27,168 nucleotides of DNA from Nitrospirota bacterium (GTDB lineage: Bacteria > NPL-UPA2 > JAADIA01), in assembly GCA_013151555.1 (NCBI GenBank), contig JAADIA010000010.1:1-27168 (forward strand), in the 5' to 3' direction. This document shows, in pieces, positions 1 through 11,951 of this stretch (position 1 is its first letter; each line of letters starts with the position of its first letter). The notes beneath the pieces are model-generated. The model searched no databases, was not told where the DNA came from, and saw only the letters and a list, made by a program, of their open reading frames with translations. The position numbers and the translations under genes were made by a program.

Positions 1-220
1 ATGTGCTTACTCACTTGCTTAGACGAAGGGGAAATTCTCTGCGGACTAATTACTTGCCCTCGGGCTAGGGATATTAATTCGCACTTATTATCCGCCTTGG
101 GCGGGCGATGTGCTCACTCACTTGCTTAAACAAGGGGAAATTCTCTTCGATAATTTCCCCTTAAGCTGCGGAGTTAATTCACACTTATCACTTAGTTTCA
201 CTAAGTGATGTGTTCATTAA
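1..220 (+). repeat. Array of structured two-hairpin repeats upstream of the LysM-mutL genes
   Basis: There is no gene here. The stretch holds two full copies (81-113 and 181-213) of a 33-nt hairpin with a fixed plan: 4-bp base, 2-nt TT bulge on the 5' side, 10-bp upper stem, 3-nt loop. The bases are GCAC/GTGC in the first copy and ACAC/GTGT in the second, and the upper stem of the second is a perfect 10 bp with a different sequence. Between them lies a perfect 9-bp hairpin, GGGGAAATT/AATTTCCCC, at 134-160. Bases 1-40 look like the tail of another copy that starts before the window. The same arrangement precedes hflX and argH. The array ends just before a strong ribosome binding site, which suggests a 5' leader. 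A mobile palindromic repeat is the alternative. Confidence 0.75.
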
Positions 221-238
221 AAGGAGGTGAATTTAAAG

Positions 239-628
239 ATGAGGAAGATTGAGGTAACAACTATCTCTTTGGCGTTGGGATCAATATTTCTTCTGGCAGG
301 TTGCAGTTTTCAGTTTCAGACTAAGCCGGTGGTGAAGACTACCGGGGAAGTTATTAAAGTACCGGCCGTGGAAAAAGCGGAGCCTGTAGAAAAAAAGGTT
401 GTTGAAGTGAAAAAGGCAGAGCCCGTAGAAAAGGTTCCTGAAGTTAAAGAAGAATTAGCAAATACTCACACTGTAGTTAAGGGAGAGACGCTGTGGGATA
501 TTGCCGGCTATAAAGATGTCTACGGGGATCCTACCAAGTGGAAGCTAATTTATGAGGCTAACAAAGATATCCTGGATAGTCCCGATTCCCTTAAGCCGGG
601 GCAACTACTTGTTATTCCTCGGGAGTAG
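239..628 (+). CDS. LysM-domain lipoprotein
   Basis: This is a small exported protein of 129 residues. It has a signal peptide ending in a lipobox (LLAGC, lipidated Cys22) and then a Lys/Glu/Pro/Val-rich linker in which KAEPVEK occurs twice. A C-terminal LysM domain runs from about residue 77 to the end, with the typical HTVVKGETLWDIA opening and LKPGQLLVIP close. LysM domains bind peptidoglycan or related glycans, so the protein probably tethers a membrane to the cell wall. I chose the ATG at 239 because AAGGAGGTGA lies 8 nt upstream; an in-frame GTG at 227 falls inside that ribosome binding site. The stop is 5 nt before mutL, so the two are probably co-transcribed. The exact role is unknown. 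Confidence 0.88.
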   Translation: MRKIEVTTISLALGSIFLLAGCSFQFQTKPVVKTTGEVIKVPAVEKAEPVEKKVVEVKKAEPVEKVPEVKEELANTHTVVKGETLWDIAGYKDVYGDPTKWKLIYEANKDILDSPDSLKPGQLLVIPRE

Positions 629-633
629 GGGAA

Positions 634-2352
634 ATGGCAAAGAGGATTGGTGTACTCTCCCCGGAAATAGCTAATAAGATTGCTGCCGGCGAAGTAGTGG
701 AAAGGCCGGCTTCTGTAGCCAAGGAGCTGGTGGAAAATTCATTGGATGCCGGGAGTAGTCGTATTATCATTGAGGTAAAAGGCGGCGGGAAAGATCTTAT
801 TCGCGTCACCGATGATGGCTGGGGGATGGAAGAGGAAGATGCTCTCCTTTCTTTACAAAGACACTCCACCAGTAAAATTTCCAAGTTAGATGATTTGGAA
901 TCCATTGTCAGCTTTGGTTTCCGGGGAGAAGCCTTACCGGCTATTAGTGCTGTTTCTCAACTGGAATTAATTACCCGTCCGGAGAAACAATTGGCCGGTA
1001 CCAGAATCCGGGTCGAAGGGGGACAGGTAAAGGAGATAAGAAAGGAAGGGTGTCCTCCGGGAACGACGATAATTGTTCGCCGTCTCTTTTTTAATACTCC
1101 TGCCCGGCGGAAGTTCCTGAAGTCGGTATCTACGGAAATCGGTCATCTGAGCGAATGGATTGGCAGGCTTTCTCTGGCGAAAGAAGATGTTTTCTTCCAG
1201 TTAATACATAATGGAGAGGAAATATTTACCCTTCCTTCAGGAAAGGGTCTGGGAGAAAGGATAGCCAGTCTCTACAGCCGGGATTTAAAAGAAAACCTGC
1301 TTGGTCTCGATTCCGGAGATGATAGCCTTCTTCAGGTAAAAGGGTTTTTGGCTAAGCCGGAGGAGAGCCGTTCCCGTCCCATGCGGCAACTTTTCTATGT
1401 GAATGGTCGTCCTATTAAAAGCCGGTTAATAAGTCATGCTCTCTTTGAGGGGTATAAGGAGTTCCTTCCTACAGGAAAGTTCCCGGTTGCTTTTCTCTTC
1501 TTGCAGATTAACCCTTCCCTGGTAGATGTAAATGTCCATCCGGCCAAGAGAGAGGTAAAATTCTCCCGGGAAAAGGAAGTGCATGATTCTATCTCTCGAG
1601 TAGTAAAAGAGACTTTGAGAAAAGGCAAGCCGGTCCCGGAGATTAAGATAGGAGAGAGTCGGGAGGGAAGAATAAAAGAAAGGATAGCAAGGTATCTGAG
1701 CAAAGAACCTTCTTCCTCCGAGTTGTTTAATCCGTCTGCTCTGCAGGAAACAACGGCTCTTCCCAAGAAAGAAGGTTCTCCTCTTACCCTGCTGGCCCAA
1801 TTTGAGAATACCTATATTATTACCCGGGAAAAAGGAAAGATAGTAATTTTTGATCAACATGCTGCTCACGAGCGCATTCTTTATAAACGATTAAAGGATA
1901 AGGCGGCTCAAGCACGTGTTGAGTCCCAAGCACTTCTCTTCCCTCTTAATTTGGAACTGACCCTTAAAGAAGCAACCGTTCTTAAGCAAAACCTTCCCGT
2001 TCTTACTTCCCTCGGTTTTGACATCGAAGGTTTCGGAGGAAATGCTTTTATCCTCAGAGCGGTACCTTCCTTGCTGAATAAGGCTAACCCCAAACAATTG
2101 CTCCTTGATATTGTTGATGACCTTTTAGGAGGGAAAAAAATAGAGGAGCCCTTAGAAAAACAAGAGCAGATTATTATCATTATGGCTTGTCGGGGAGCAG
2201 TTAAAGCCGGGGATAGATTGGAGCAGGAAGAGATGGTTTCTCTTCTCAAAGAACTTCCCCGGATGGAGCATTCTTATACCTGCCCTCATGGTCGTCCGAC
2301 GATGGTCGAGCTTACCTTAGAGGAATTGGAAAAGAGATTCAGACGCAAGTGA
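634..2352 (+). CDS. mutL: DNA mismatch repair protein MutL
   Basis: MutL couples mismatch recognition by MutS to strand incision and excision. The N-terminal GHKL ATPase is clear: KELVENSLDAG (Glu31 and Asn35 by alignment to E. coli Glu29/Asn33), the GFRGEAL lid motif near residues 95-101, and the FFNTPARRKFL region. The C-terminal half carries endonuclease motifs: DQHAAHE at 407-413, an ACRGAVKAGD motif, and CPHGRP at 550-555, as in MutL proteins of bacteria lacking MutH. One deviation is that the second Glu of the DQHA(X)2E(X)4E motif is Lys418. The length of 572 residues is normal. It follows the LysM gene by 5 nt and overlaps miaA by 4 nt, so the genes form an operon. The start is ATG after TAGGGGAA. 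Confidence 0.97.
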   Translation: MAKRIGVLSPEIANKIAAGEVVERPASVAKELVENSLDAGSSRIIIEVKGGGKDLIRVTDDGWGMEEEDALLSLQRHSTSKISKLDDLESIVSFGFRGEALPAISAVSQLELITRPEKQLAGTRIRVEGGQVKEIRKEGCPPGTTIIVRRLFFNTPARRKFLKSVSTEIGHLSEWIGRLSLAKEDVFFQLIHNGEEIFTLPSGKGLGERIASLYSRDLKENLLGLDSGDDSLLQVKGFLAKPEESRSRPMRQLFYVNGRPIKSRLISHALFEGYKEFLPTGKFPVAFLFLQINPSLVDVNVHPAKREVKFSREKEVHDSISRVVKETLRKGKPVPEIKIGESREGRIKERIARYLSKEPSSSELFNPSALQETTALPKKEGSPLTLLAQFENTYIITREKGKIVIFDQHAAHERILYKRLKDKAAQARVESQALLFPLNLELTLKEATVLKQNLPVLTSLGFDIEGFGGNAFILRAVPSLLNKANPKQLLLDIVDDLLGGKKIEEPLEKQEQIIIIMACRGAVKAGDRLEQEEMVSLLKELPRMEHSYTCPHGRPTMVELTLEELEKRFRRK

Positions 2353-3275
2353 TTCCGCTATTAATTATACTTGGTCCAACGGCAGTAGGGAAGAGCCGGG
2401 TAAGTATTATCCTGGCCCGGGAATTAAACGGAGAAATAATCTCTGCGGATTCCCGGAAGATATATAAGTATATGAATATTGGAACTGCCAAGCCTGACGA
2501 GGAGGAAAGAAAAGAGGTTCCTCATCATCTTCTCGATTTAATTGAACCTTATGAAGAATTCAGCGCCGGCAGGTTCCGGGAAGAAGCTGAGAAAGTTATC
2601 AGCCAAGTTCATCAAAGAGGAAATGTCCCTATTCTGGTAGGAGGTTCCGGTCTATACCTGAAGGCGGTGACGGACGGACTTTTCTCCGGTCCCCGGGGAG
2701 ATAAGGACAAAAGGAAGAAGTTAAAACAACTGGCCGGAGAATTTGGTTCTCTCTATCTCTACGAGAAGTTGAAAGAAGTAGATCCCCTGGCCGCTTCCCG
2801 AATCCATCCGCATGACCTGGTCAGAACAATCCGCGCTTTGGAAGTTTATGAAGAAACCGGAAAGCCTATCTCTACGCTGCAGGCTGAGGGAAAGCAAGAA
2901 AGAGATGAATTGTATGAAACAACTATTATCGGACTCAATAGACCTCGTCCTAACCTGTATCGGAGGATTGAACGAAGAACGGAGGCAATGTTTGCCCGGG
3001 GGTTGGTGGAGGAAGTAAGAAATCTCTTAAAGCAAGGATTCCATGAGAATTTGGTTTCCATGCAAGGGGTAGGATATAAGGAAGTGTGCGGATACCTTCA
3101 TCATAGGTACGGTGAGGAAGAAGCAGTAAGATTGCTTAAACGGAATACCCGGCGATATGCGAAACGGCAATTGACTTGGTTTAAAAAGGATAAACGAATT
3201 CAGTGGATCAATATAAGTGAAAATGAAAGCGCGGAAGAAGTTGTAAAAAGAATGAAGAAAACCCTTGCCAATTGA
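2349..3275 (+). CDS. miaA: tRNA dimethylallyltransferase MiaA
   Basis: MiaA transfers a dimethylallyl group from dimethylallyl diphosphate to A37 of tRNAs that read codons beginning with U. At 308 residues it has normal length. Visible motifs are the P-loop GPTAVGKS (residues 9-16), the DSRKIYKYMNIGTAKP segment near residue 35, GGSGLYLKAVTDGL, and HDLVRTIRALEVYEETGKP. The start is GTG at 2349, overlapping the mutL stop codon, which implies translational coupling. mutL-miaA-hfq-hflX is an order found in many bacteria and supports the call. A probable hfq promoter lies across the 3' end of this gene. Confidence 0.97.
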   Translation: MIPLLIILGPTAVGKSRVSIILARELNGEIISADSRKIYKYMNIGTAKPDEEERKEVPHHLLDLIEPYEEFSAGRFREEAEKVISQVHQRGNVPILVGGSGLYLKAVTDGLFSGPRGDKDKRKKLKQLAGEFGSLYLYEKLKEVDPLAASRIHPHDLVRTIRALEVYEETGKPISTLQAEGKQERDELYETTIIGLNRPRPNLYRRIERRTEAMFARGLVEEVRNLLKQGFHENLVSMQGVGYKEVCGYLHHRYGEEEAVRLLKRNTRRYAKRQLTWFKKDKRIQWINISENESAEEVVKRMKKTLAN

Positions 3276-3293
3276 GGATGGACGGAGTAGAAT
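3265..3293 (+). promoter_or_regulatory. Probable sigma-70 promoter for hfq
   Basis: TTGCCA (3265-3270), a 17-bp spacer, then TAGAAT (3288-3293); each hexamer matches the consensus in five of six positions. It spans the miaA stop codon and would start transcription near 3300, leaving a leader of about 95 nt before hfq. This is a consensus match by eye only. Confidence 0.5.
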
Positions 3294-3295
3294 AA

Positions 3296-3379
3296 CAGAA
3301 AATAGAAGACAGGGAACAGAAGACAGAGAAAAAACAGGCAAGAGGTTTTAATAGTTATATCTATCTTCTGATTTCTGAC
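3296..3379. repeat. Imperfect inverted repeat between miaA and hfq
   Basis: The left arm at 3296-3312, rich in CAGAA and AGACAG, is roughly complementary to 3361-3379 (CTATCTTCTG then ATTTCTGAC). The centre holds repeated AGACAG and AACAG words. Similar AGAAGACAGAGGACAG words lie after the Nudix gene near 5900. It looks like a dispersed simple inverted repeat and could fold in the hfq leader. Confidence 0.45.
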
Positions 3380-3395
3380 ATTAGAGGGGGGGAAG

Positions 3396-3686
3396 ATGGG
3401 GAATTCGAGCTTGAGTTTGCAGGATAGTTTTCTCAATAAGGCCAGGCAGGAGAATTTGATAGTAACCGTTCACTTGACTAATGGATTGAAGCTGGAAGGA
3501 AAGGTAAGAGGTTTTGATAACTTCACTCTTATTCTTAATAACAGTGGGCGGGAGCATCTGGTCTACAAACATGCCGTTTCTACCATCATCCCTTTCAAAC
3601 AGGGAAATAGCTTTAATCAGAACAGGCCGAGTTATCCTGAGAAGAAGAAATTAGAGGCTCTGGCCGAGAAGTATAGCAAAAAATGA
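3396..3686 (+). CDS. hfq: RNA chaperone Hfq
   Basis: Hfq forms a hexameric ring that binds U-rich and A-rich RNA and helps small RNAs act on mRNAs. The Sm1 region starts with [11 protein letters not shown] (residues 7-17) and includes [16 protein letters not shown]. The Sm2 signature YKHAVSTI lies at residues 57-64. The core is followed by a short charged tail, giving 96 residues, close to the usual 70-100. A G-rich stretch (GAGGGGGGGAAG) just before the ATG can serve as ribosome binding site. It has its own likely promoter (3265-3293) and sits between miaA and hflX, the classical location. Confidence 0.96.
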
Positions 3687-3700
3687 TATGAAAAGATTTA

Positions 3701-3945
3701 TCCCGTTTCGTATGATACCCTGAAATTCCCTCCGATAATTTTAGCGAACTCAACGAGATTAATTCGTGCTGAGTATTTTAGCTAGCTTCCCTGTGTGATA
3801 TTAATTCGCATTGATTACCCGCCTGGGGCGGGTGATATGCTCACTCACTTGCTTAGACGAAGGGGAAATTCTCTTCGATAATTTCCCCTTAAGCTGCGGA
3901 GTTAATTCGCACTTATCATCCGCCTCAGGCGGATGGTGTGCTCAT
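3701..3945 (+). repeat. Array of structured two-hairpin repeats upstream of hflX
   Basis: This fills most of the 274-base gap between hfq and hflX. Two 33-nt hairpins lie at 3808-3840 (base GCAT/ATGC, bulge TG) and 3909-3941 (base GCAC/GTGC, bulge TT), each with a 10-bp upper stem and 3-nt loop. Between them, at 3862-3888, is the perfect 9-bp hairpin GGGGAAATT/AATTTCCCC, identical to the one at 134-160. A diverged copy of the first module starts at 3701 (TCCCGTTTCGTA), with AACGAGA downstream able to pair with TCCCGTT apart from one mismatch. The last hairpin is followed by TCATTAGAGGG and then the hflX reading frame. The GCAC/GTGC to GCAT/ATGC change is a paired substitution, supporting a functional stem. 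Confidence 0.78.
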
Positions 3946-3960
3946 TAGAGGGTAAAAACT

Positions 3961-5250
3961 ATTAGCAAACAACGTCGACCAACTCTGGCTACCGAAGATA
4001 CGCAAAGGGAGAGGGCTCTTCTTGTCATTTCTAAACCGCTCCGTTCATCTGAGTGGGAACTGGAGGATCTGCTTAGCGAATTAAAACTTCTCGTTGATAG
4101 TGTCGGAGCCGAAGTTTCTTCAGTTACTATTTTGAGAAGGGCAAAACCAAGCCCGTCTCATTTCATTGGCCGGGGCAAAGCCGAGGAAATAAGAGCAAAA
4201 GTTGAAGAAGAAAAGGCTGATTTTGTTATCTTTAATAATGATTTAACTCCGACTCAACAACGCAATCTGGAAGAGAGCCTTCACACCCGGGTAATTGATC
4301 ATACGCAACTGATTCTGGATATTTTTGCCCAGAGAGCTCAGACCAAAGAGGGAAAATTACAGGTAGAGTTAGCGCAACTTAGTTATCTTCTTCCCCGGCT
4401 TACCGGATTAGGAATCGAACTTTCCCAGTTGGGTGGGGGTATTGGAACTCGGGGTCCGGGCGAGACCCAATTAGAAGTTGACCGGAGAAGAATCCGTCGT
4501 CGTCTTACCAAGTTAAAGGAAGAAATAAAAGAGGTACGGAAACACCGGACTCTCCAGAGAGAAGGAAGAAGGAAAAACCCTTTTCCTATAGTTGCTTTGG
4601 TTGGCTACACCAATTCCGGAAAGTCAACCCTTCTTAACAGCCTGACCGGCTCTGATGTCAAAGTAGAGAATAAACTCTTTGTTACTTTGGACCCGGCTAC
4701 ACGAAAGGTTAAGCTTCCTTCTAAAAGAGAAATTCTCCTTACCGATACCGTAGGTTTTATCCGTTACCTTCCCCATCATCTTATTGCCGCTTTTAAAGCC
4801 ACCCTGGAAGAGGTTACCGAAGCCGATGTCCTTATTATTGTTCTTGATGCCGGGCATCCTAAACATCAAGAACAAAGCGGAGTGGTTTTTCAAGTTCTCA
4901 ACCAACTTGGGGCTATGGACAAACCCATAGTCATTGCTTTGAATAAGATGGACCTTCTCCAAAGCAGGTTGGAACAAAGACGTCTTCAACGAGAATTCCC
5001 CGAAGGGATTCTTATCTCTGCCCGGGAGAAAGAAGGGTTAGAAAGATTAATGCAAGAGTTAGAACAAGCTCTTCCCGAAAAAAGGGAGACGGTAAAAGTG
5101 CTTATTCCGCAAAAGGAAGGAACTTTGCTGGCCTCTATTAGAAAAGAAGGGACAATATTCCAGGAGAGGTACCGGAATAGCCAGGTCTATTTAGAGGCAG
5201 AAGTGGGAAAGGAGTTGGCCAGGAGATTAGAGAAATACCAATTGAAATAA
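3961..5250 (+). CDS. hflX: Ribosome-associated GTPase HflX, probable AUU start
   Basis: HflX is a GTPase that binds the large ribosomal subunit and splits or rescues stalled ribosomes. The N-terminal HflX domain includes ERALLV near residue 18, FIGRGKAEEI, ILDIFAQRAQTKEGKLQVELAQL and GGGIGTRGPGETQLE. A G domain follows, with P-loop GYTNSGKST at residues 215-223, the DTVGF G3 motif and the NKMD G4 motif. A start at the first TTG (4132) would remove 57 residues that clearly match the family N-terminus. The frame opens after a TAG at 3946-3948 and has no ATG, GTG or TTG before 4132. ATT at 3961, 9 nt after GAGG, gives 429 residues, close to E. coli HflX. A CTG at 3985 or a sequence error are alternatives. 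Confidence 0.93.
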   Translation: MSKQRRPTLATEDTQRERALLVISKPLRSSEWELEDLLSELKLLVDSVGAEVSSVTILRRAKPSPSHFIGRGKAEEIRAKVEEEKADFVIFNNDLTPTQQRNLEESLHTRVIDHTQLILDIFAQRAQTKEGKLQVELAQLSYLLPRLTGLGIELSQLGGGIGTRGPGETQLEVDRRRIRRRLTKLKEEIKEVRKHRTLQREGRRKNPFPIVALVGYTNSGKSTLLNSLTGSDVKVENKLFVTLDPATRKVKLPSKREILLTDTVGFIRYLPHHLIAAFKATLEEVTEADVLIIVLDAGHPKHQEQSGVVFQVLNQLGAMDKPIVIALNKMDLLQSRLEQRRLQREFPEGILISAREKEGLERLMQELEQALPEKRETVKVLIPQKEGTLLASIRKEGTIFQERYRNSQVYLEAEVGKELARRLEKYQLK

Positions 5251-5391
5251 CCAATAATCAAATTTCAATAACCAAATAATAATCAATATCCAATGACCAA
5301 TGTTCCAAGCGGATGATAAAGAAAAAGTTTGGTTATTGATTATTGGTGTTTGGTGATTATTTGATGTTTGGTGCTTGATTATTGGTTATTT
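5245..5391. repeat. Long AT-rich inverted repeat after hflX
   Basis: The outer arms, 5245-5261 and 5375-5391, are perfectly complementary over 17 bp (AAATAACCAATAATCAA). Further imperfect pairing continues inward (words such as ATAACCAAATAAT against TTGGTTATTGATTATTGG) around a short centre near 5310-5328. The left arm contains the hflX stop codon. The whole could form one long hairpin in the 3' end of the hflX mRNA and may act as a processing or termination structure. It is built from repeated CCAAT/ATTGG words, as in dispersed repeats of some candidate-phylum genomes. Confidence 0.75.
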
Positions 5392-5445
5392 AGAAGTTGA
5401 GGTTTGTTTTTCATCCGTGGCTAAAAAAGTAAGTGGGAGGAGACG

Positions 5446-5898
5446 TTGAGCAAACCAACGGCTTTAATAAAGATACGCATAGCTATTATTCTGCTTAAAG
5501 ATGATAAAATCCTCTTTGTTAAACATCGGAAACATCAGCAAAGTTACTGGGTGCTTCCCGGAGGCACGGTGGAGTGGGGGGAAACTCTTGAAGAAGCAGC
5601 CAAAAGGGAGATAAGGGAGGAAACCAACCTGGAGATAGTTTTTGGGGAACCGGTCTTTATCAATGAAGCGATTCCTCAAGATGGACACCAACATATCATC
5701 GATCTTTACTGCACGGGAAAGATTTTAGGAGGGGACCTGAAAGTACCCAGGGAAAAGGTCCTCCAGGAAGCAAGGTTCTTCACTAAAGAGAGCTTCGAGG
5801 GCCTGAGTTTTTATCCGGATATTAAAGAAGAGCTGAAAGAAGAATGGAAAAAAGGCTTCCAGGGCAAGCTGAAGTATTTAGGGAATAGATGGAAGTGA
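5446..5898 (+). CDS. Nudix hydrolase
   Basis: This is a 150-residue protein of the Nudix family, which cleaves nucleoside diphosphates linked to another moiety. The Nudix box lies at residues 40-62: a Gly, then Glu46, then REIREET, with the usual final Gly-hydrophobic pair replaced by Asn-Leu. The preceding WVLPGG motif is typical of MutT-like members. The start is TTG at 5446 after GGGAGGAG, with close spacing. No signal peptide is present, so it acts in the cytoplasm. It stands alone between the inverted repeat and an M48 protease gene, and its substrate cannot be told from sequence. Confidence 0.9.
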   Translation: MSKPTALIKIRIAIILLKDDKILFVKHRKHQQSYWVLPGGTVEWGETLEEAAKREIREETNLEIVFGEPVFINEAIPQDGHQHIIDLYCTGKILGGDLKVPREKVLQEARFFTKESFEGLSFYPDIKEELKEEWKKGFQGKLKYLGNRWK

Positions 5899-5969
5899 TG
5901 ACAGAAGACAGAGGACAGACAAAAGCTTTCCGTTAAAGGTTAAAGGTTTAAAGTTTAAGGTTAAGGAAT

Positions 5970-6746
5970 ATGAAACCTGTAGTTAGAAAAAATATCAGGA
6001 TGGCTTTGTTTATCATCCTCCTTCTTTCTGCCGGCTGTGCTACTGTGTATAACCCGGCTACGGGAAAGAAGGAAGTTATCTTCATTGATCAGGAAAGCCA
6101 GGTTGCCATTGGCACCGAGATGGCAAAAAGGATGGAGAAAGAATATCCTCTTTATAAGAATGCCCGGGCGACTGAATACGTAAACCGGATCGGACAAACG
6201 GTAGCCCGGGCCGGGGACAGACCTGATTTAGAGTATCATTTTAAGATATTAAATATAAAAGCGGTGAATGCCTTTGCTCTCCCGGGAGGATTTGTTTATG
6301 TAACTAAAGGATTGCTGAACATAGCAAATAAGGATGAGCTGGCGGCTGTCCTCGGCCATGAGATCGGGCATATCGCTGCCCGGCACGGGACAAAGAAACT
6401 TCAGACGCAGTTGGGATACAGCCTTCTCTCTGCTCTCATCTTCCAGGAGAATAACTATAAAGAGAGAGAGATTGCGCGAGCTGCCAACACCGCCTTCAAC
6501 CTGATTTCCCTTGGTTACAGTCGAGAAGACGAATTTCAAGCAGATCAGCTGGGAACATTATATAGTTATCGTGCCGGGTACGGACTCTGGGGAATGTTAA
6601 GTTTTTTGAAGAAACTTAAGAAGATGGAAAAACAAGAACCGTCTCTCCTGAAGGTTTTCTTGAGCACTCATCCTCCCACCTCGGAGCGAATAAAAGTGGT
6701 CGAGGAAGAAGTGAAAAAGTTGGAGCAGGCCCGGGTGTCAAAATAA
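5970..6746 (+). CDS. M48-family metalloprotease lipoprotein (BepA/LoiP-like)
   Basis: This 258-residue protein has an N-terminal membrane segment ending in the lipobox LSAGC (Cys23), so it is probably an envelope lipoprotein. The zinc-binding motif HEIGH is at 130-134 and the third ligand is probably Glu188 in the DEFQAD segment. The block AFALPGGFVYVTKGLL ahead of HEIGH is typical of the Oma1/BepA/LoiP branch. Such proteases act in outer-membrane protein quality control in known bacteria. The start ATG follows TTAAGGAAT. The 71-base gap upstream has repeated GTTAAAGG words. It ends 28 nt before the convergent esterase gene, with no obvious terminator between. Confidence 0.92.
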   Translation: MKPVVRKNIRMALFIILLLSAGCATVYNPATGKKEVIFIDQESQVAIGTEMAKRMEKEYPLYKNARATEYVNRIGQTVARAGDRPDLEYHFKILNIKAVNAFALPGGFVYVTKGLLNIANKDELAAVLGHEIGHIAARHGTKKLQTQLGYSLLSALIFQENNYKEREIARAANTAFNLISLGYSREDEFQADQLGTLYSYRAGYGLWGMLSFLKKLKKMEKQEPSLLKVFLSTHPPTSERIKVVEEEVKKLEQARVSK

Positions 6747-6774
6747 ATGTCACAAGTTTGTCTGTGTAGTTTAG

Positions 6775-8823
6775 CTATGGTGTCTGCGGCTGGGTTTTTC
6801 CCTGCCAGTCATCAGTACGGAAGGGGCTGGCCGGCAGCCCTTCTTCATTAAAGAGATTGCACGTTGGTGAGTTGCCCCAAGCATATCGCACGGCTATCGG
6901 GTCAGGTACCTTGTCGTTCCACACGACAACGGATGGTCCTTCTATCCTAGCCTTAGCCCAGGCGAACTTGCAATCTTTGCCGGCGATGGCAAACCCTTTA
7001 AGGTCCTCACCGTCCTTTGTTACCAGTCCGCTGCCAAGATGCTTGAAGGTAAGACGGATTTCTTTTCCTTCTCTTTTCATGGAAGCGTATATCGGTCCGG
7101 AATAAATAATATCTTTACCATATTCCCGGGCCAGCGCTATCAAAGCTAAACGTTTTCCCACGTCTTGTTTATTACGCGGATGGATATTATTGGCCTCACC
7201 GATATCGATGGTAACGGCCATTCCTGTTTTTGGGACGGTTAAGAGCGTGATGAGCTGGGCTTCTCGCAGTTCCGCCCAGGTACTGTCCTGGGGTTCGGTC
7301 GGGAACGCTTCGGCCGGAATCGGTTTCCCGGGTTGGTGACGAAAGAAATTGGCCAGTTGGACGAAATAGAAGGGGAAGTCTCCTTGTCCCCAACGGGCAC
7401 GCCAATCGCGGATAAGGGCCGGGAAGAGAGTCCGGTAAGCGTAAGCTCTCCCTGTATTGCTCTCTCCCTGATACCAGATTACCCCCCGGATGGGATAGGG
7501 AAGCAACGGATGTATCATTGCGTTAAAGAGGATATTCGGGGGGCGGTAGTTTTTCTGATTCACCAGCATCCGAGGTCGTTTCAGCGTATCGACAATGGTC
7601 TTTACCTCAATGGCGTATTTCCAGTTCCCGGCCAGAGAAAGTTGCTTCCTCTCTTTTCCGCCTCGATAGACCAGGCGTAAATCTTTCGCTTGGCCGACAA
7701 AGCCTCCGCTTTGGCCGAGGTCGGTTAAACGCACCGCAATAACGTTACGACCGGTCTTGAGAATTCCCGGATTGATTATATAATTCCGTTTTACTTTCCA
7801 GGGTTTGATGGTTTCCGGACCAGTGTACCCTACCAGCTTGCCGTTCACATAAGTTACATCGAAATCATCTATCATTCCCAGGCTCAGAATCGGTTTCTCT
7901 CGTTTATTTACATCCGGCAAATAAATAGTCTTCCGGAACCAGATAATGCCGTCGATATCGAGCTTTGCAGAGCTGTCTTCGAGGGTGGAGGGAAGTTTGA
8001 TTTCCGGCCATGTGGAATCGTCAAACTCTGACTTCTGCCAGCCTGCTGCCAGGGTATTCACCTCGGCCCTGGGGAAGGTCTTCTTCATAAATTCGGTGAT
8101 GGATAGAACATACTTTCCCAGCGCTTCTTTGTATTTTTCTTTCGAGAGCACCTGCTTTTGAACGTCTTCCTTCAGGGCGGGGTTTGCTTCCAGTCCCTCG
8201 CGGCTGATCCAGAGCTCAGCCGGGGTTCCTCCCCGAGAAGCATGAATCAGGCCGATCGGAACCTTTAATTCTTCCTGAAGCTTGCGTCCGAAGAAATACG
8301 CTGCTGCAGAAAAATCGGGCACGGTTTGTGGTGAGCAAACAACCCAGTTGCCTACTACATCCGGCTCTTCTTTGGTAGAGGTAAGATAGGGCACTGTAAA
8401 GAGGCGGATATTCGTGTTTTTAGCCGAGGCAATTTCCTGCTCAGCATTAAAAGATCGTTTCAAGTTCATATGCATATTGGATTGTCCGGAAGCGATCCAA
8501 ACATCACCGACCATCACGTTATTGAGGGAGATGGTATTCTTTCCCCGAACCGTCAGTTGGTAAGGTCCGCCGGCCGGGAAGGAGGCAAGAGTTGTTTCCC
8601 AACGGCCGTTATCATCGGCTGTAGCCGTTGCCTTCCGGTCAAGTAAGTTGACGGTTATCCTTTCGCCAGGATCAGCCGTGCCCCAGACGTGGACCGGTTT
8701 CTGGCGTTGCAGGACCATGTTGTCTGAAAAGAGAGCCGGCAGCCTGACATCCGCACTTGCGGTCATGCCGGCCCAGAAATAAATAACTATGCTGATCCAG
8801 AAAATTCGTTTTCGTAGGAACAT
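6775..8823 (-). CDS. Secreted sialate O-acetylesterase-like enzyme (SASA family)
   Basis: This 682-residue protein begins with an N-terminal signal peptide ending near TASA (residues 21-24). The order is an N-terminal beta domain (about 25-105), the esterase motif GQSNM with likely nucleophile Ser115, and a galactose-binding-like jelly-roll insertion at about 260-390 (FDDSTW and DDFDVTYVNGKLVG). The core then resumes with GVIWYQGESN and a late NNIHPRN segment that probably supplies the catalytic His. The layout matches SASA/DUF303 esterases that remove O-acetyl groups from sialic acid or plant polysaccharides. The substrate here is unknown. It is a single gene on the - strand with an AAGGAGG site ahead of its ATG, converging on the M48 gene. 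Confidence 0.92.
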   Translation of the reverse strand: MFLRKRIFWISIVIYFWAGMTASADVRLPALFSDNMVLQRQKPVHVWGTADPGERITVNLLDRKATATADDNGRWETTLASFPAGGPYQLTVRGKNTISLNNVMVGDVWIASGQSNMHMNLKRSFNAEQEIASAKNTNIRLFTVPYLTSTKEEPDVVGNWVVCSPQTVPDFSAAAYFFGRKLQEELKVPIGLIHASRGGTPAELWISREGLEANPALKEDVQKQVLSKEKYKEALGKYVLSITEFMKKTFPRAEVNTLAAGWQKSEFDDSTWPEIKLPSTLEDSSAKLDIDGIIWFRKTIYLPDVNKREKPILSLGMIDDFDVTYVNGKLVGYTGPETIKPWKVKRNYIINPGILKTGRNVIAVRLTDLGQSGGFVGQAKDLRLVYRGGKERKQLSLAGNWKYAIEVKTIVDTLKRPRMLVNQKNYRPPNILFNAMIHPLLPYPIRGVIWYQGESNTGRAYAYRTLFPALIRDWRARWGQGDFPFYFVQLANFFRHQPGKPIPAEAFPTEPQDSTWAELREAQLITLLTVPKTGMAVTIDIGEANNIHPRNKQDVGKRLALIALAREYGKDIIYSGPIYASMKREGKEIRLTFKHLGSGLVTKDGEDLKGFAIAGKDCKFAWAKARIEGPSVVVWNDKVPDPIAVRYAWGNSPTCNLFNEEGLPASPFRTDDWQGKTQPQTP

Positions 8824-8988
8824 TTTATGAGCCTCCTTTTGTATTTAGAACCTGTTTGAGGATGATATCAAAAGCTCTTCTTGTTTTTCCCTTTTTTGCA
8901 AACCAAGGTATCTTGAGAAAAAGCTGATAATAGAATAGCACAAGGCAGGGAAATAGGAAAGGATTCTGGAAGTTAAAAAATAAGAAGA

Positions 8989-9016
8989 TTGCTTGCCGGG
9001 GGGGAGAAAATATGTT
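8989..9016 (+). promoter_or_regulatory. Possible promoter for the DUF6485 gene
   Basis: TTGCTT (8989-8994), 16 bp, then TATGTT (9011-9016), about 57 bases before the small cysteine-rich gene. The hexamers are only fair matches. The rest of the 249-base divergent gap (8824-9072) shows nothing else that I can name. Confidence 0.3.
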
Positions 9017-9072
9017 AAAATCACCACAATAATGGTGGGTTAAAAACCTAAAGAGGAAAGGAGTGAAAATAC

Positions 9073-9267
9073 ATGGAATGTAACCAGGCAGAAAATAAGG
9101 CCAGGTGTAATTGTACCTACGAACCCTGCAGCCGGAAGGGAATTTGCTGCCAGTGTCTTGCTTACCATTTACCCAATAAAGAGCTTCCGGCCTGTGCTTT
9201 TCCTCCCGAAAAGGAAAGAACCTACAATCGTTCCTTCCAGGCTTTTATTGACGCCCATAGTAAATGA
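9073..9267 (+). CDS. Small cysteine-rich protein, DUF6485 type
   Basis: This 64-residue protein has eight Cys in the N-terminal two thirds: a CNCTYEPCSRKGICCQC block, then ELPACAFP. The pattern CNCTYEPCSRKG with a later ELPAC is what I recall for the DUF6485 family, found in anaerobes and of unknown function. The clustered Cys suggest metal binding, as an inference. No signal peptide is seen. AAAGGAGTGA about 7 nt before the ATG is a strong ribosome binding site, so the small gene is credible. It lies 47 nt ahead of rmuC and may be co-transcribed with it. Confidence 0.85.
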   Translation: MECNQAENKARCNCTYEPCSRKGICCQCLAYHLPNKELPACAFPPEKERTYNRSFQAFIDAHSK

Positions 9268-9314
9268 GGGATAACTTGTCTCCGTTTTGCAGCAAGTAAA
9301 AAGGAATTTGGATA

Positions 9315-10421
9315 ATGGGGTTAGAGAATAGCGTCTTATTTTTTTTAGGGGTGCTCTTGATTGTCATCATCCTGGGTGCAGTCGGCATCTGGTTAACCAA
9401 TCGCAGGATTCGGGAACTTAAAGAATCAAGCCGGGATACCCAATCTCTCTCTTTGCTTCAGCAACAGATAGCCAATCTTGAAACTCAGCTAACTACTCGT
9501 TTGAGCCAGATGACCGGTCAGGTAAACGAACGCCTCCGGGAAAACGCGGAGGTGCTCCGGGACACTCATAAAACGATAGGGGAGAGGTTGGATTCTACCA
9601 CCAGTATCGTAGGAGCAGTCCGGAGCAGTTTAGGAAAACTGGAAGAAGCTAACCGGCATCTCTACGAAGTTGGAAAAGATATTGCCAGTCTCCAGGAACT
9701 TCTCCGGGCTCCTACTTTCAGAGGAGAAGTGGGAGAATTCCTTTTAGGTAATCTTCTCAGTCAACTTCTGCCTTCGGAACATTTTACTTTAAAACATGAA
9801 TTCAAGAATGGCGAAGTAGTGGATGCAGTTATTCGTTTGGGGGGGAATCTTGTTCCCATAGATTCCAAATTCCCTTTAGAGAACTTCCGGAAAATGGTAG
9901 AGAACAAGAATGAAGGAGACCGGAAATCTAACCGGAGAAAATTCGTTGCCGATGTTAAGCGGAGAATCAATGAAATAGCACAAAAGTATATCCTTCCCGA
10001 TGAAGGCACTTTTGAGTTTGCTCTCATGTATATCCCGGCTGAGAACGTCTATTATGAGACAATAATCAAAGATGAGTCCCTGGCTGAGGAGCGGGGAATT
10101 TCTTCTTATGCCCTGGCCCGGAAAGTTATTCCGGTTTCCCCCAATAGTCTTTATGCTTATCTACAGGCTATTCTCCTGGGTTTGAAGGGGTTGAAGATTG
10201 AGAAGAACGCTCAGGAGATTATTGCTAACCTGGGACGGTTGAGCACGGATTTATCAAGGTTCAAAGAAGATTTCCAGGTTATGGGAAAACATCTTTCCAA
10301 TACCAGGAACAAATATGAGGAAGCAGAGAAGAGACTGGATAGATTCACCGATAAACTGATTGGGGCAGGAAACTCCTCTCTGCCGGTTTTAGACGAGCCG
10401 GATGGCAATGAAGAAAGATAA
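9315..10421 (+). CDS. rmuC: DNA recombination protein RmuC
   Basis: RmuC proteins limit DNA inversions at short inverted repeats and are thought to be nucleases. This 368-residue copy has one N-terminal membrane helix (about residues 6-26), a long coiled coil (about 30-130, ending near SSLGKLEEANRHL), and a restriction-endonuclease-like core. The core includes GEFLLGNLLSQLLP, VVDAVIRLGGN and PIDSKFPLENF, whose Asp and Asp-X-Lys residues fit the PD-(D/E)XK fold, and FALMYIPAENVYYE. The start is ATG at 9315 with AAAAGGA about 10 nt before. The C-terminal Gly/Asn/Glu-rich tail is short. A promoter for the next leader begins right after its stop. Confidence 0.94.
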   Translation: MGLENSVLFFLGVLLIVIILGAVGIWLTNRRIRELKESSRDTQSLSLLQQQIANLETQLTTRLSQMTGQVNERLRENAEVLRDTHKTIGERLDSTTSIVGAVRSSLGKLEEANRHLYEVGKDIASLQELLRAPTFRGEVGEFLLGNLLSQLLPSEHFTLKHEFKNGEVVDAVIRLGGNLVPIDSKFPLENFRKMVENKNEGDRKSNRRKFVADVKRRINEIAQKYILPDEGTFEFALMYIPAENVYYETIIKDESLAEERGISSYALARKVIPVSPNSLYAYLQAILLGLKGLKIEKNAQEIIANLGRLSTDLSRFKEDFQVMGKHLSNTRNKYEEAEKRLDRFTDKLIGAGNSSLPVLDEPDGNEER

Positions 10422-10437
10422 CTGTTTTCCTGGTTTC

Positions 10438-10466
10438 TTGACCTTTTTATATCCGTGTGATAGAAT
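10438..10466 (+). promoter_or_regulatory. Sigma-70 promoter for the argH leader
   Basis: TTGACC (10438-10443), a 17-bp spacer, then TAGAAT (10461-10466). Both hexamers match the consensus in five of six positions with ideal spacing. The predicted transcription start, near 10473, lies just ahead of the hairpin repeat, so the repeat would be transcribed as the argH 5' leader. Confidence 0.6.
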
Positions 10467-10472
10467 TTGTTA

Positions 10473-10601
10473 AAATTGGGATGTCCCGCTTCGTAGGATA
10501 TGCGAAAATTCTTTTCAATAATTTTTGGCATACTCAGCGGGATAATTCGCACTGATCATTTATGTTCACACTTCGTACTCCATAAAGGATGTGCTCATTA
10601 A
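10473..10601 (+). promoter_or_regulatory. Structured leader of argH, third locus of the two-hairpin repeat
   Basis: The first hairpin has outer arms TCCCGCT (10484-10490) and AGCGGGA (10536-10542), and inside them TATGC and AAAATT paired with GCATA and AATTTT. The second, 10549-10594, has base GCAC/GTGC, a TG bulge on the 5' side and a 10-bp upper stem with one mismatch; its loop is 16 nt instead of 3. TCATTA follows, as at the hflX and LysM loci. The ATG at 10602 has no ribosome binding site after the hairpin. The only candidate, AAAGGAT (10584-10590), lies in the 3' arm of the second hairpin, so folding would hide it. This suggests translational control, which is an inference. Confidence 0.65.
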
Positions 10602-11951
10602 ATGAAGCTTTGGCAGAAAGGTTATAAACTGGATAAAGAGGTAGAGAAATTCACGGTAGGAGACGACTACCTCCTGGATAGAGAACTGATTGAAGCTGAT
10701 GTCCTGGGTAGTCTCGCTCATGCCGAGATGCTGGTTTCCCTGAAGATTCTCACGGCGGGAGAGTTCAAGAAGCTGAGAAAGGTTCTCCTGGAGATTCTTC
10801 TCCTCCGGGAAGAAGAAAAGTTTACTATCTCTGCCCGGGACGAAGATGTCCACACGGCCGTTGAAAATTACCTGACTAAAAAATTAGGGGATCTGGGCAA
10901 GAAAATTCATACTGCCCGCTCCCGTAACGATCAGGTCATCGTTGACCTGAGAATTTATGCTAAAGGAAAACTGTTAGAGCTTGAAGAGTCCCTTCTGGAC
11001 TTTTGCCGGACCCTCCGGAGATTCTGCCGGGAGAACAAGAATGTTCCTATGCCCGGTTATACCCATTGCCGGAAAGCTATGCCATCTTCAGTATCTTTAT
11101 GGGCGGGGGCTTTCCTGGAATCTTTACTTGATGATTTATTCCTCTTGAAGTCCGCTTACGAGATAAATAACCAATGCCCCCTCGGTTCCGCTGCCGGTTA
11201 TGGAGTTCCTTTAAATATCGACCGCCAGCTTACCTCCGACCTTTTAGGGTTTAAAAAAGTCCAGAATAATGTCCTTTATGTCAATAACAGCCGGGGAAAG
11301 ATAGAATCTATCATTCTTTCTGCTTTGTCCCAGGTCATGCTTGATTTAAGTAAATTAGCCGAGGATTTAATCCTTTTTACCCGGGAGGAATTTAATTATT
11401 TTGCTCTTCCCGATGAATTTTGTCCCGGTTCGAGTATTATGCCTCAAAAAAAGAATCCCGGGCCTTTGGAGATCGTGAGAGGGAAATCGAACGTGGTAGT
11501 CTCTTATCTCTTCCAGGTGCTCAATGTTATAAACGGTCTTCCCTCCGGGTATAATCAAGACTTTCAACTTACCAAAGGTCCTCTTCTTAAAGGACTGGAG
11601 ATTACGAATTCATCTTTGCAAGTATCTGCCCTGATCATCTCCGGGTTAAAAGTGAATAAGGAAAGTTTAAAGAAATCCTTTCCTCCGGAGATCTTTGCTA
11701 CCGATGAAGCCTACAAATTGGTAAAGGAAGGAATGCCTTTCCGGGACGCTTATCGCCGGGTAGCTAAAGACAGCAAACGTTCCCAAACCCTAACTCCGGG
11801 GAAGATTATCTCATCCCGGAAACATCTGGGAGCTTCCGGGAACTTAGGGCTGGAAAAGGTTGAGAAAAGGATAAAGGAGGAACTGAAAATTTTAAAGAAG
11901 GAAAAAGATGCCTTCGAAAAGAAGAAGAGGCGTCTCACCAAAACTGCCTGA
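10602..11951 (+). CDS. argH: Argininosuccinate lyase
   Basis: ArgH splits argininosuccinate into arginine and fumarate, the last step of arginine synthesis. At 449 residues it has normal length. Motifs of the fumarase/aspartase superfamily are present: EDVHTAVE at 81-88, HTARSRNDQ at 103-111, PGYTH with catalytic His155, and GSSIMPQKKNPG at 276-287, the flexible loop with the catalytic Ser. GYTHCRKAMP differs from the usual GYTHLQ.AQP but keeps the His. The C-terminus is Lys-rich. No argG or other arginine gene is near. It is driven by its own promoter and structured leader, and the HD-GYP gene follows 74 nt later. Confidence 0.95.
   Translation: MKLWQKGYKLDKEVEKFTVGDDYLLDRELIEADVLGSLAHAEMLVSLKILTAGEFKKLRKVLLEILLLREEEKFTISARDEDVHTAVENYLTKKLGDLGKKIHTARSRNDQVIVDLRIYAKGKLLELEESLLDFCRTLRRFCRENKNVPMPGYTHCRKAMPSSVSLWAGAFLESLLDDLFLLKSAYEINNQCPLGSAAGYGVPLNIDRQLTSDLLGFKKVQNNVLYVNNSRGKIESIILSALSQVMLDLSKLAEDLILFTREEFNYFALPDEFCPGSSIMPQKKNPGPLEIVRGKSNVVVSYLFQVLNVINGLPSGYNQDFQLTKGPLLKGLEITNSSLQVSALIISGLKVNKESLKKSFPPEIFATDEAYKLVKEGMPFRDAYRRVAKDSKRSQTLTPGKIISSRKHLGASGNLGLEKVEKRIKEELKILKKEKDAFEKKKRRLTKTA

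Follow-up and report, generated by a model that had tools for sequence, protein, structure and literature searches.

A mobile palindromic repeat resembling REP and MITE elements, located ahead of gene starts in a small bacterial phylum

The hairpin arrays found ahead of three genes in a 27,168-nt stretch of a Nitrospirota bacterium (contig JAADIA010000010.1, called the window below) belong to a dispersed family that is mobile, as judged from sites filled in one genome and empty in a close relative and from the wholesale replacement of stems. Our verdict is that the family is a mobile palindromic repeat which resembles REP and MITE elements and differs from them in tag, Y1 linkage and gene-end position. 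We put at about 0.7 the probability that it is a phylum-restricted family of short, non-autonomous palindromes, with a putative recombinase inserting each copy on the 5′ side of a purine tract. A sequence-only reading of the three loci had proposed either a structured mobile repeat or a cis-acting RNA under selection. The mobile-repeat half of that proposal has direct evidence in the filled and empty sites and the stem replacement, whereas a role as cis-acting RNA is possible.

Hairpin arrays of the window and architecture of the unit

The five hairpins described by the sequence-only reading were all located at their coordinates in the window sequence (Table 1), and folding recovered the plan claimed for them, with a 4-bp base, a 2-nt bulge on the 5′ side and a 10-bp upper stem. 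The length of 33 nt given for four of them and the AATTC flank were both correct. In comparison with shuffled sequences four of the five were far more stable (z −2.6 to −5.8), the hairpin at 10549–10594 being weak when folded alone (z −1.1) and containing mismatches; three non-Watson-Crick positions were found within the upper stem of hairpin 81–113. The base helix continues outward past a UC/UC internal loop, where TYAAT and ATTRA pair, and the true terminal hairpin extends from TTAATTC through TCATTA, longer than the arms first claimed.

An AAATT/AATTT hairpin was present ahead of every array, as had been noted; those of loci 1 and 2 are strong, whereas locus 3 has a second sequence type. 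In locus 1 a decayed unit is followed by an internal, a middle and a terminal hairpin and then by a gene for a LysM protein located before mutL, the start of which is GTG 227 or ATG 239. Locus 2 shows the same order ahead of hflX, and in locus 3 argH (ATG at 10602) is preceded by a middle hairpin of type 2 and a terminal hairpin of greater length. All three arrays stop just 5′ of the gene start and point in the direction of the gene, in agreement with the earlier description. In the region 3948–3963, hflX has no ATG, GTG or TTG close to its Shine-Dalgarno sequence. The likely start is the in-frame ATT at 3961, soon after GAGGG, and the match to the N-terminal domain indicates that the gene begins upstream of 4132.

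Table 1. Elements of the three hairpin loci in the window.
Feature	Positions	Strand	Evidence
Locus 1, decayed upstream unit: truncated hairpin 3′ end (1–8) and broken middle module (from 9)	1–73	+	model R1 match 9–119, 44.5 bits
Locus 1, internal hairpin (arms 81–113), partly decayed	74–119	+	folding, pairing count
Locus 1, middle hairpin type 1 (ACTC..GCTT..AAGGGGAAATTCTCTTCGATAATTTCCCCTT..AAGC..GAGT)	116–177	+	z −5.5
Locus 1, terminal hairpin (arms 181–213)	174–219	+	z −4.4
Locus 1, AAAGGAGG Shine-Dalgarno immediately 3′ of the terminal hairpin	220–227	+	
Locus 2, decayed upstream middle module (AAATTCCCTCCGATAATTT core at 3723)	3714–3770	+	
Locus 2, internal hairpin (arms 3808–3840)	3801–3846	+	z −4.0
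Locus 2, middle hairpin type 1	3843–3905	+	z −3.6
Locus 2, terminal hairpin (arms 3909–3941), adjoining GAGGG and the hflX reading frame	3902–3947	+	z −5.8
Locus 3, middle hairpin type 2 (CCCGC..TATGC..AAAATT..AATTTT..GCATA..GCGGG)	10484–10543	+	z −3.5
Locus 3, terminal hairpin (arms 10549–10594), longer, with a different apical stem	10542–10600	+	folding, model match

A unit consists of a terminal hairpin, often with one or more middle hairpins ahead of it. The full terminal hairpin reads TTAAT-UC-GCAC-(2-nt bulge)-10 bp-3-nt loop-10 bp-GTGC-UC-ATTAA, and all copies keep the frame TYAAT-TC, then the stem, 2-nt bulge and upper stem, then TC-ATTRA. The UC/UC internal loop and the position of the 2-nt bulge are invariant, and 36 of the 64 rows of the catalogue described below are exactly 44 nt long. 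The middle hairpin, upstream of the terminal one, occurs in two sequence types with the common core AAATTCTCTNCGATAATTT. Between the middle and terminal hairpins at loci L024, L025 and L026 lies a three-armed palindrome cluster, CCCCTAGAAATTGC..GCAATTTC-AGGGAC..GTCCT-GGAAATTC..GAATTTC-TCAGGG, which could form a cloverleaf-like junction.

Type 1 middle hairpins contain GATAAT, similar to a −10 box, together with an extended TGC, and the unit might be regarded as a mobile promoter cassette that turns on the next gene. A TAGACA-16-TGCGATAAT-like arrangement was seen by eye in several type 1 copies, and the copies are oriented towards genes; however, many terminal hairpins have no type 1 middle hairpin ahead of them, the −10-like box is GACAAT or missing elsewhere, and type 2 and G005 modules carry no −35 (by eye). 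This explanation is very unlikely and was set aside, since the −35 and −10 boxes are not conserved across copies as compared by eye.

The paired base changes reported for the window hairpins are real. In 15 two-hairpin units of the window's genome (G000), 99.3% of the cells were paired and nine pairs had changed on both sides, and 29 distinct cores of 44 nt, drawn from five genomes, had a paired fraction of 96.4%, with both-side changes in 14 of 19 pairs and a covariation score of 0.52 against 0.20 for shuffles (reached by none of 500), all these counts taking as independent copies that are not. The outermost TYAAT/ATTRA helix also covaries, T-A being replaced by C-G in G002 and G003. Covariation establishes the structure, not what caused it, and the paired changes are no proof of RNA function because the stems are swapped as entire blocks. 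A general caution follows from this family: a dispersed hairpin can covary strongly because its stems are exchanged in blocks, and not through selection on RNA pairing. The arrays become more decayed with distance from the gene. Internal hairpins of the arrays keep 12.2 of 14 Watson-Crick pairs, as compared with 13.9 of 14 in terminal hairpins (p = 1e-4, count corrected by hand), a difference that fits array growth with the newest copy at the end or selection on the terminal copy.

Distribution and placement relative to genes

A DNA search together with a covariance model detected about 45 matching places in G000 (1.81 Mb, 99 contigs), near-identical copies among them, and the window hairpins are thus far beyond chance. 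With the covariance model, matches were obtained in six of nine genomes of the phylum (G000, G001, G002, G003, G005 and G006) and none in G004, G007 and G008; the frame pattern AATTCG-N-CTCATTR gave the same genome distribution, plus unpaired chance matches. When pairing was required, the catalogue comprised 61 terminal hairpins (36 in G000, 12 in G005, seven in G002, and two each in G001, G003 and G006), after two spurious rows and one duplicate had been removed by hand from the original 64. No match to the family was obtained in a search of plasmids, nor in one of viral contigs with the exact G000-type pattern. The family appears so far to be confined to this small phylum, as seen in incomplete draft assemblies through searches and selected stretches. 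In agreement with the earlier statement that no named family could be recognised, no Rfam match was obtained at the gathering score; with curated and loose thresholds no Rfam family was found in the window or at the other copies, except the tmRNA gene itself, and a search of one literature library yielded no description of the family.

By our own tally a gene or RNA start lies on the 3′ side, in the same orientation, of 56 of the 61 hairpins, six of them accepted by eye (the tmRNA copy, argH, hflX, C60, a C8 gene with a short frame, and dppF). A Shine-Dalgarno sequence no more than 6 nt away and, within 20 nt, the start of an open reading frame of 55 codons or more were found for 50 of 61. Among the five exceptions are one copy lying reversed where a glnA-like gene ends and a hairpin beside a tRNA-like sequence (both by eye). 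Orientation and position relative to gene starts are therefore nearly fixed, and not random. The GGAGG tract is absent at a few sites (dppF, G001:C14 and G000:C44:6424). In at least four tight gene pairs (G002:C14, C69 and C113; G005:C43) the upstream gene, a long one, terminates at the TAA of TAATTCG. The downstream genes are unrelated, including groEL, hisS, rpmA, rpsK, ilvB, ilvC, hisG, metF, ribH, clpC, cspA and others, names given mostly by eye from translations, with Pfam confirming groEL, ribH, LysM, the HflX GTPase domains and the ArgH lyase. At L154 (G000:C8) a NifU-like gene behind the hairpin is open for just 28 codons, which suggests a frameshift or a sequence error.

These data bear on the proposal that the hairpin is a selected cis-acting RNA, a 5′ leader or intercistronic insulator which stacks next to the Shine-Dalgarno sequence, holding it open or shielding the mRNA segment downstream, and has spread because it is useful. 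Fixed orientation, a spacing of 0–6 nt to the Shine-Dalgarno sequence, constant length and strong covariation amount to a conserved, covarying structure at a fixed place before genes, as in a leader RNA, an argument weakened by the block exchange of stems. The better pairing of terminal hairpins speaks for the same proposal, as does the presence of the hairpin before ribH in three families and before a PIN/TRAM gene in two, although such sharing could reflect old conserved sites or insertion hotspots. On the other hand, housekeeping genes have empty sites in a sister genome, the downstream genes share no pathway, the Shine-Dalgarno sequence is not sequestered by the hairpin, and one copy shifts the dppF start codon into the element. 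Another copy stops 3 nt short of a tmRNA gene, where there is no Shine-Dalgarno sequence, suggesting a purine-tract target (AAAGGRGG) and not a purely translational role. We consider a selected cis-acting RNA doubtful as the explanation of the family, and the placement would suit a structural leader role. Judging from the copies at the tmRNA gene and dppF and from the empty sites, the hairpins are positioned by a sequence preference (AAAGGRGG) and by tolerance rather than by a required function.

Filled and empty sites and candidate transposases

The genomes G005 and G006 are close relatives, with about 92–97% identity in matched stretches. The element is present in G005 and absent from G006 at ssrA, at a STAS-domain gene and at dppF, three filled/empty pairs that, compared with no outgroup, may be gains or losses. 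Such sites in close relatives, and the dispersed near-identical non-coding copies, are both features of MITE-like elements. At dppF only a possible ATT repeat flanks the element, and no clean target-site duplication was found at the sites compared.

At cspA the element is present in both G005 and G006, with the same frame and flanks and entirely different stems. An inner 30-nt palindrome was found at cspA in G006 and not in G005, and at clpC in G005 and not in G006. Gene conversion among ancestral leader hairpins at fixed sites, in place of transposition, would account for the orthologous cspA sites keeping their frame while the stems are swapped, but at ssrA, dppF and the STAS-domain gene the site is empty and the genes on either side are intact, which makes it highly improbable. 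At ribH, G002 has the element and its congener G001 an unrelated palindrome in the same gap; at this site (L250, G001:C57) the palindrome AGTAGCGAG..CTCGCTACT lies directly 5′ of TTTTAAAGGAGG.

The end hairpins of IS200/IS605 elements are imperfect and bulged, are recognised as single strands, and have a small target motif. The hairpins of the present family are likewise imperfect and bulged, single-strand recognition and a small target motif being only inferred for them; unlike IS200/IS605 ends, they have no linked TnpA, and their stem sequences vary freely. It is unlikely that they are a REP family moved by a RAYT or IS200-IS605 Y1 transposase acting on bulged single-stranded hairpins. The bulges and the non-autonomous dispersal agree with such an origin, GGAG or GGGA often lies ahead of the hairpin, and Y1 (RAYT-like) transposase genes are present in G000, G003 and G005. 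Nevertheless, G002, which is 90% complete and holds copies, gave no Y1 match, and G004 has six Y1 matches and no hairpin. No such hairpin was found in the flanks of the Y1 genes searched in these incomplete genomes; no Y1 gene bordered by copies of the repeat, as in RAYT-mobilised REPs, was thus encountered. There is also no constant GTAG or CGTC tag. A RAYT-like Y1 gene at L055 (G000:C1, about 1400–2250) is, by eye, bordered by an inverted GGGGACAGGCTAC repeat of its own, which has no relation to the hairpins.

Proposed insertion mechanism and comparison with known repeats

In the mobile-palindrome reading that we favour, some recombinase would recognise single-stranded DNA folded into the hairpin, probably by its frame and its invariant UC/UC mismatch, and would place the hairpin 5′ of the purine tract AAAGGRGG, in practice the Shine-Dalgarno sequence. 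Tolerance of insertion at this site would follow from the ribosome-binding site and the start codon being left unharmed, and from the TAA of the element being usable as an upstream stop. The target would outlive the insertion and later copies would join at the Shine-Dalgarno end, which would explain the arrays with decayed upstream units. Effects on expression, if any, would be secondary. Against the mobile-palindrome reading stand the lack of a linked enzyme among the Y1 genes checked, the lack of a clean target-site duplication, the few sites devoid of a GGAGG tract, and the better pairing of terminal hairpins, which could reflect selection and not youth. We further suggest, tentatively, that a mobile DNA hairpin having the Shine-Dalgarno tract itself as target would endow unrelated genes with a common 5′ leader hairpin in one orientation, freely exchangeable in its stem and fixed in its frame, which could become a shared regulatory leader. 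The family offers a natural test case of a mobile element beside an expression signal, perhaps turning into a leader RNA.

The nearest known kind is that of the REP superfamilies. The GTAG and CGTC superfamilies of REP sequences are found close to the 3′ ends of upstream genes, and their distance from downstream genes varies (PMC3733652). REPs are short mobile intergenic palindromes, often composite and tolerated beside stop codons (PMC3733652), and so are the present hairpins. Unlike REPs, the hairpins lack a constant end tag of GTAG or CGTC, the invariant stretch being AATTC, and they show the frame TYAAT-TC...TC-ATTRA, which REPs do not have. Their location, at 5′ gene ends, 0–6 nt from the Shine-Dalgarno sequence and in one orientation, is not that of REPs; in lying at gene starts, in a single orientation and a few nucleotides from the ribosome-binding site, the family is the opposite of the known bacterial REPs.

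The RU-1 and RU-2 repeats of enterobacteria are MITEs (PMC2759123), and the present family is, like them, non-autonomous, intergenic, small and mobile. It differs from RU-1 and RU-2 in being shorter, with no demonstrated target duplication, directional at gene starts and exchangeable in its stems. The TAACTGA repeats of Beggiatoaceae are heptamer direct repeats in organisms where canonical ribosome-binding sites are rare (PMC4679880). The likeness to these repeats is one of position only, both being intergenic and a few nucleotides from the start codons of unrelated genes, whereas the present family consists of covarying hairpins ahead of strong Shine-Dalgarno sequences.

Repeats were also noted in other pre-gene gaps of the window. 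A long AT-rich inverted repeat of the ATAACCAATAATCAA type occupies 5245–5400 in the gap ahead of a NUDIX-like gene, and further simple repeats are found at about 3290–3345 and 5895–5965.
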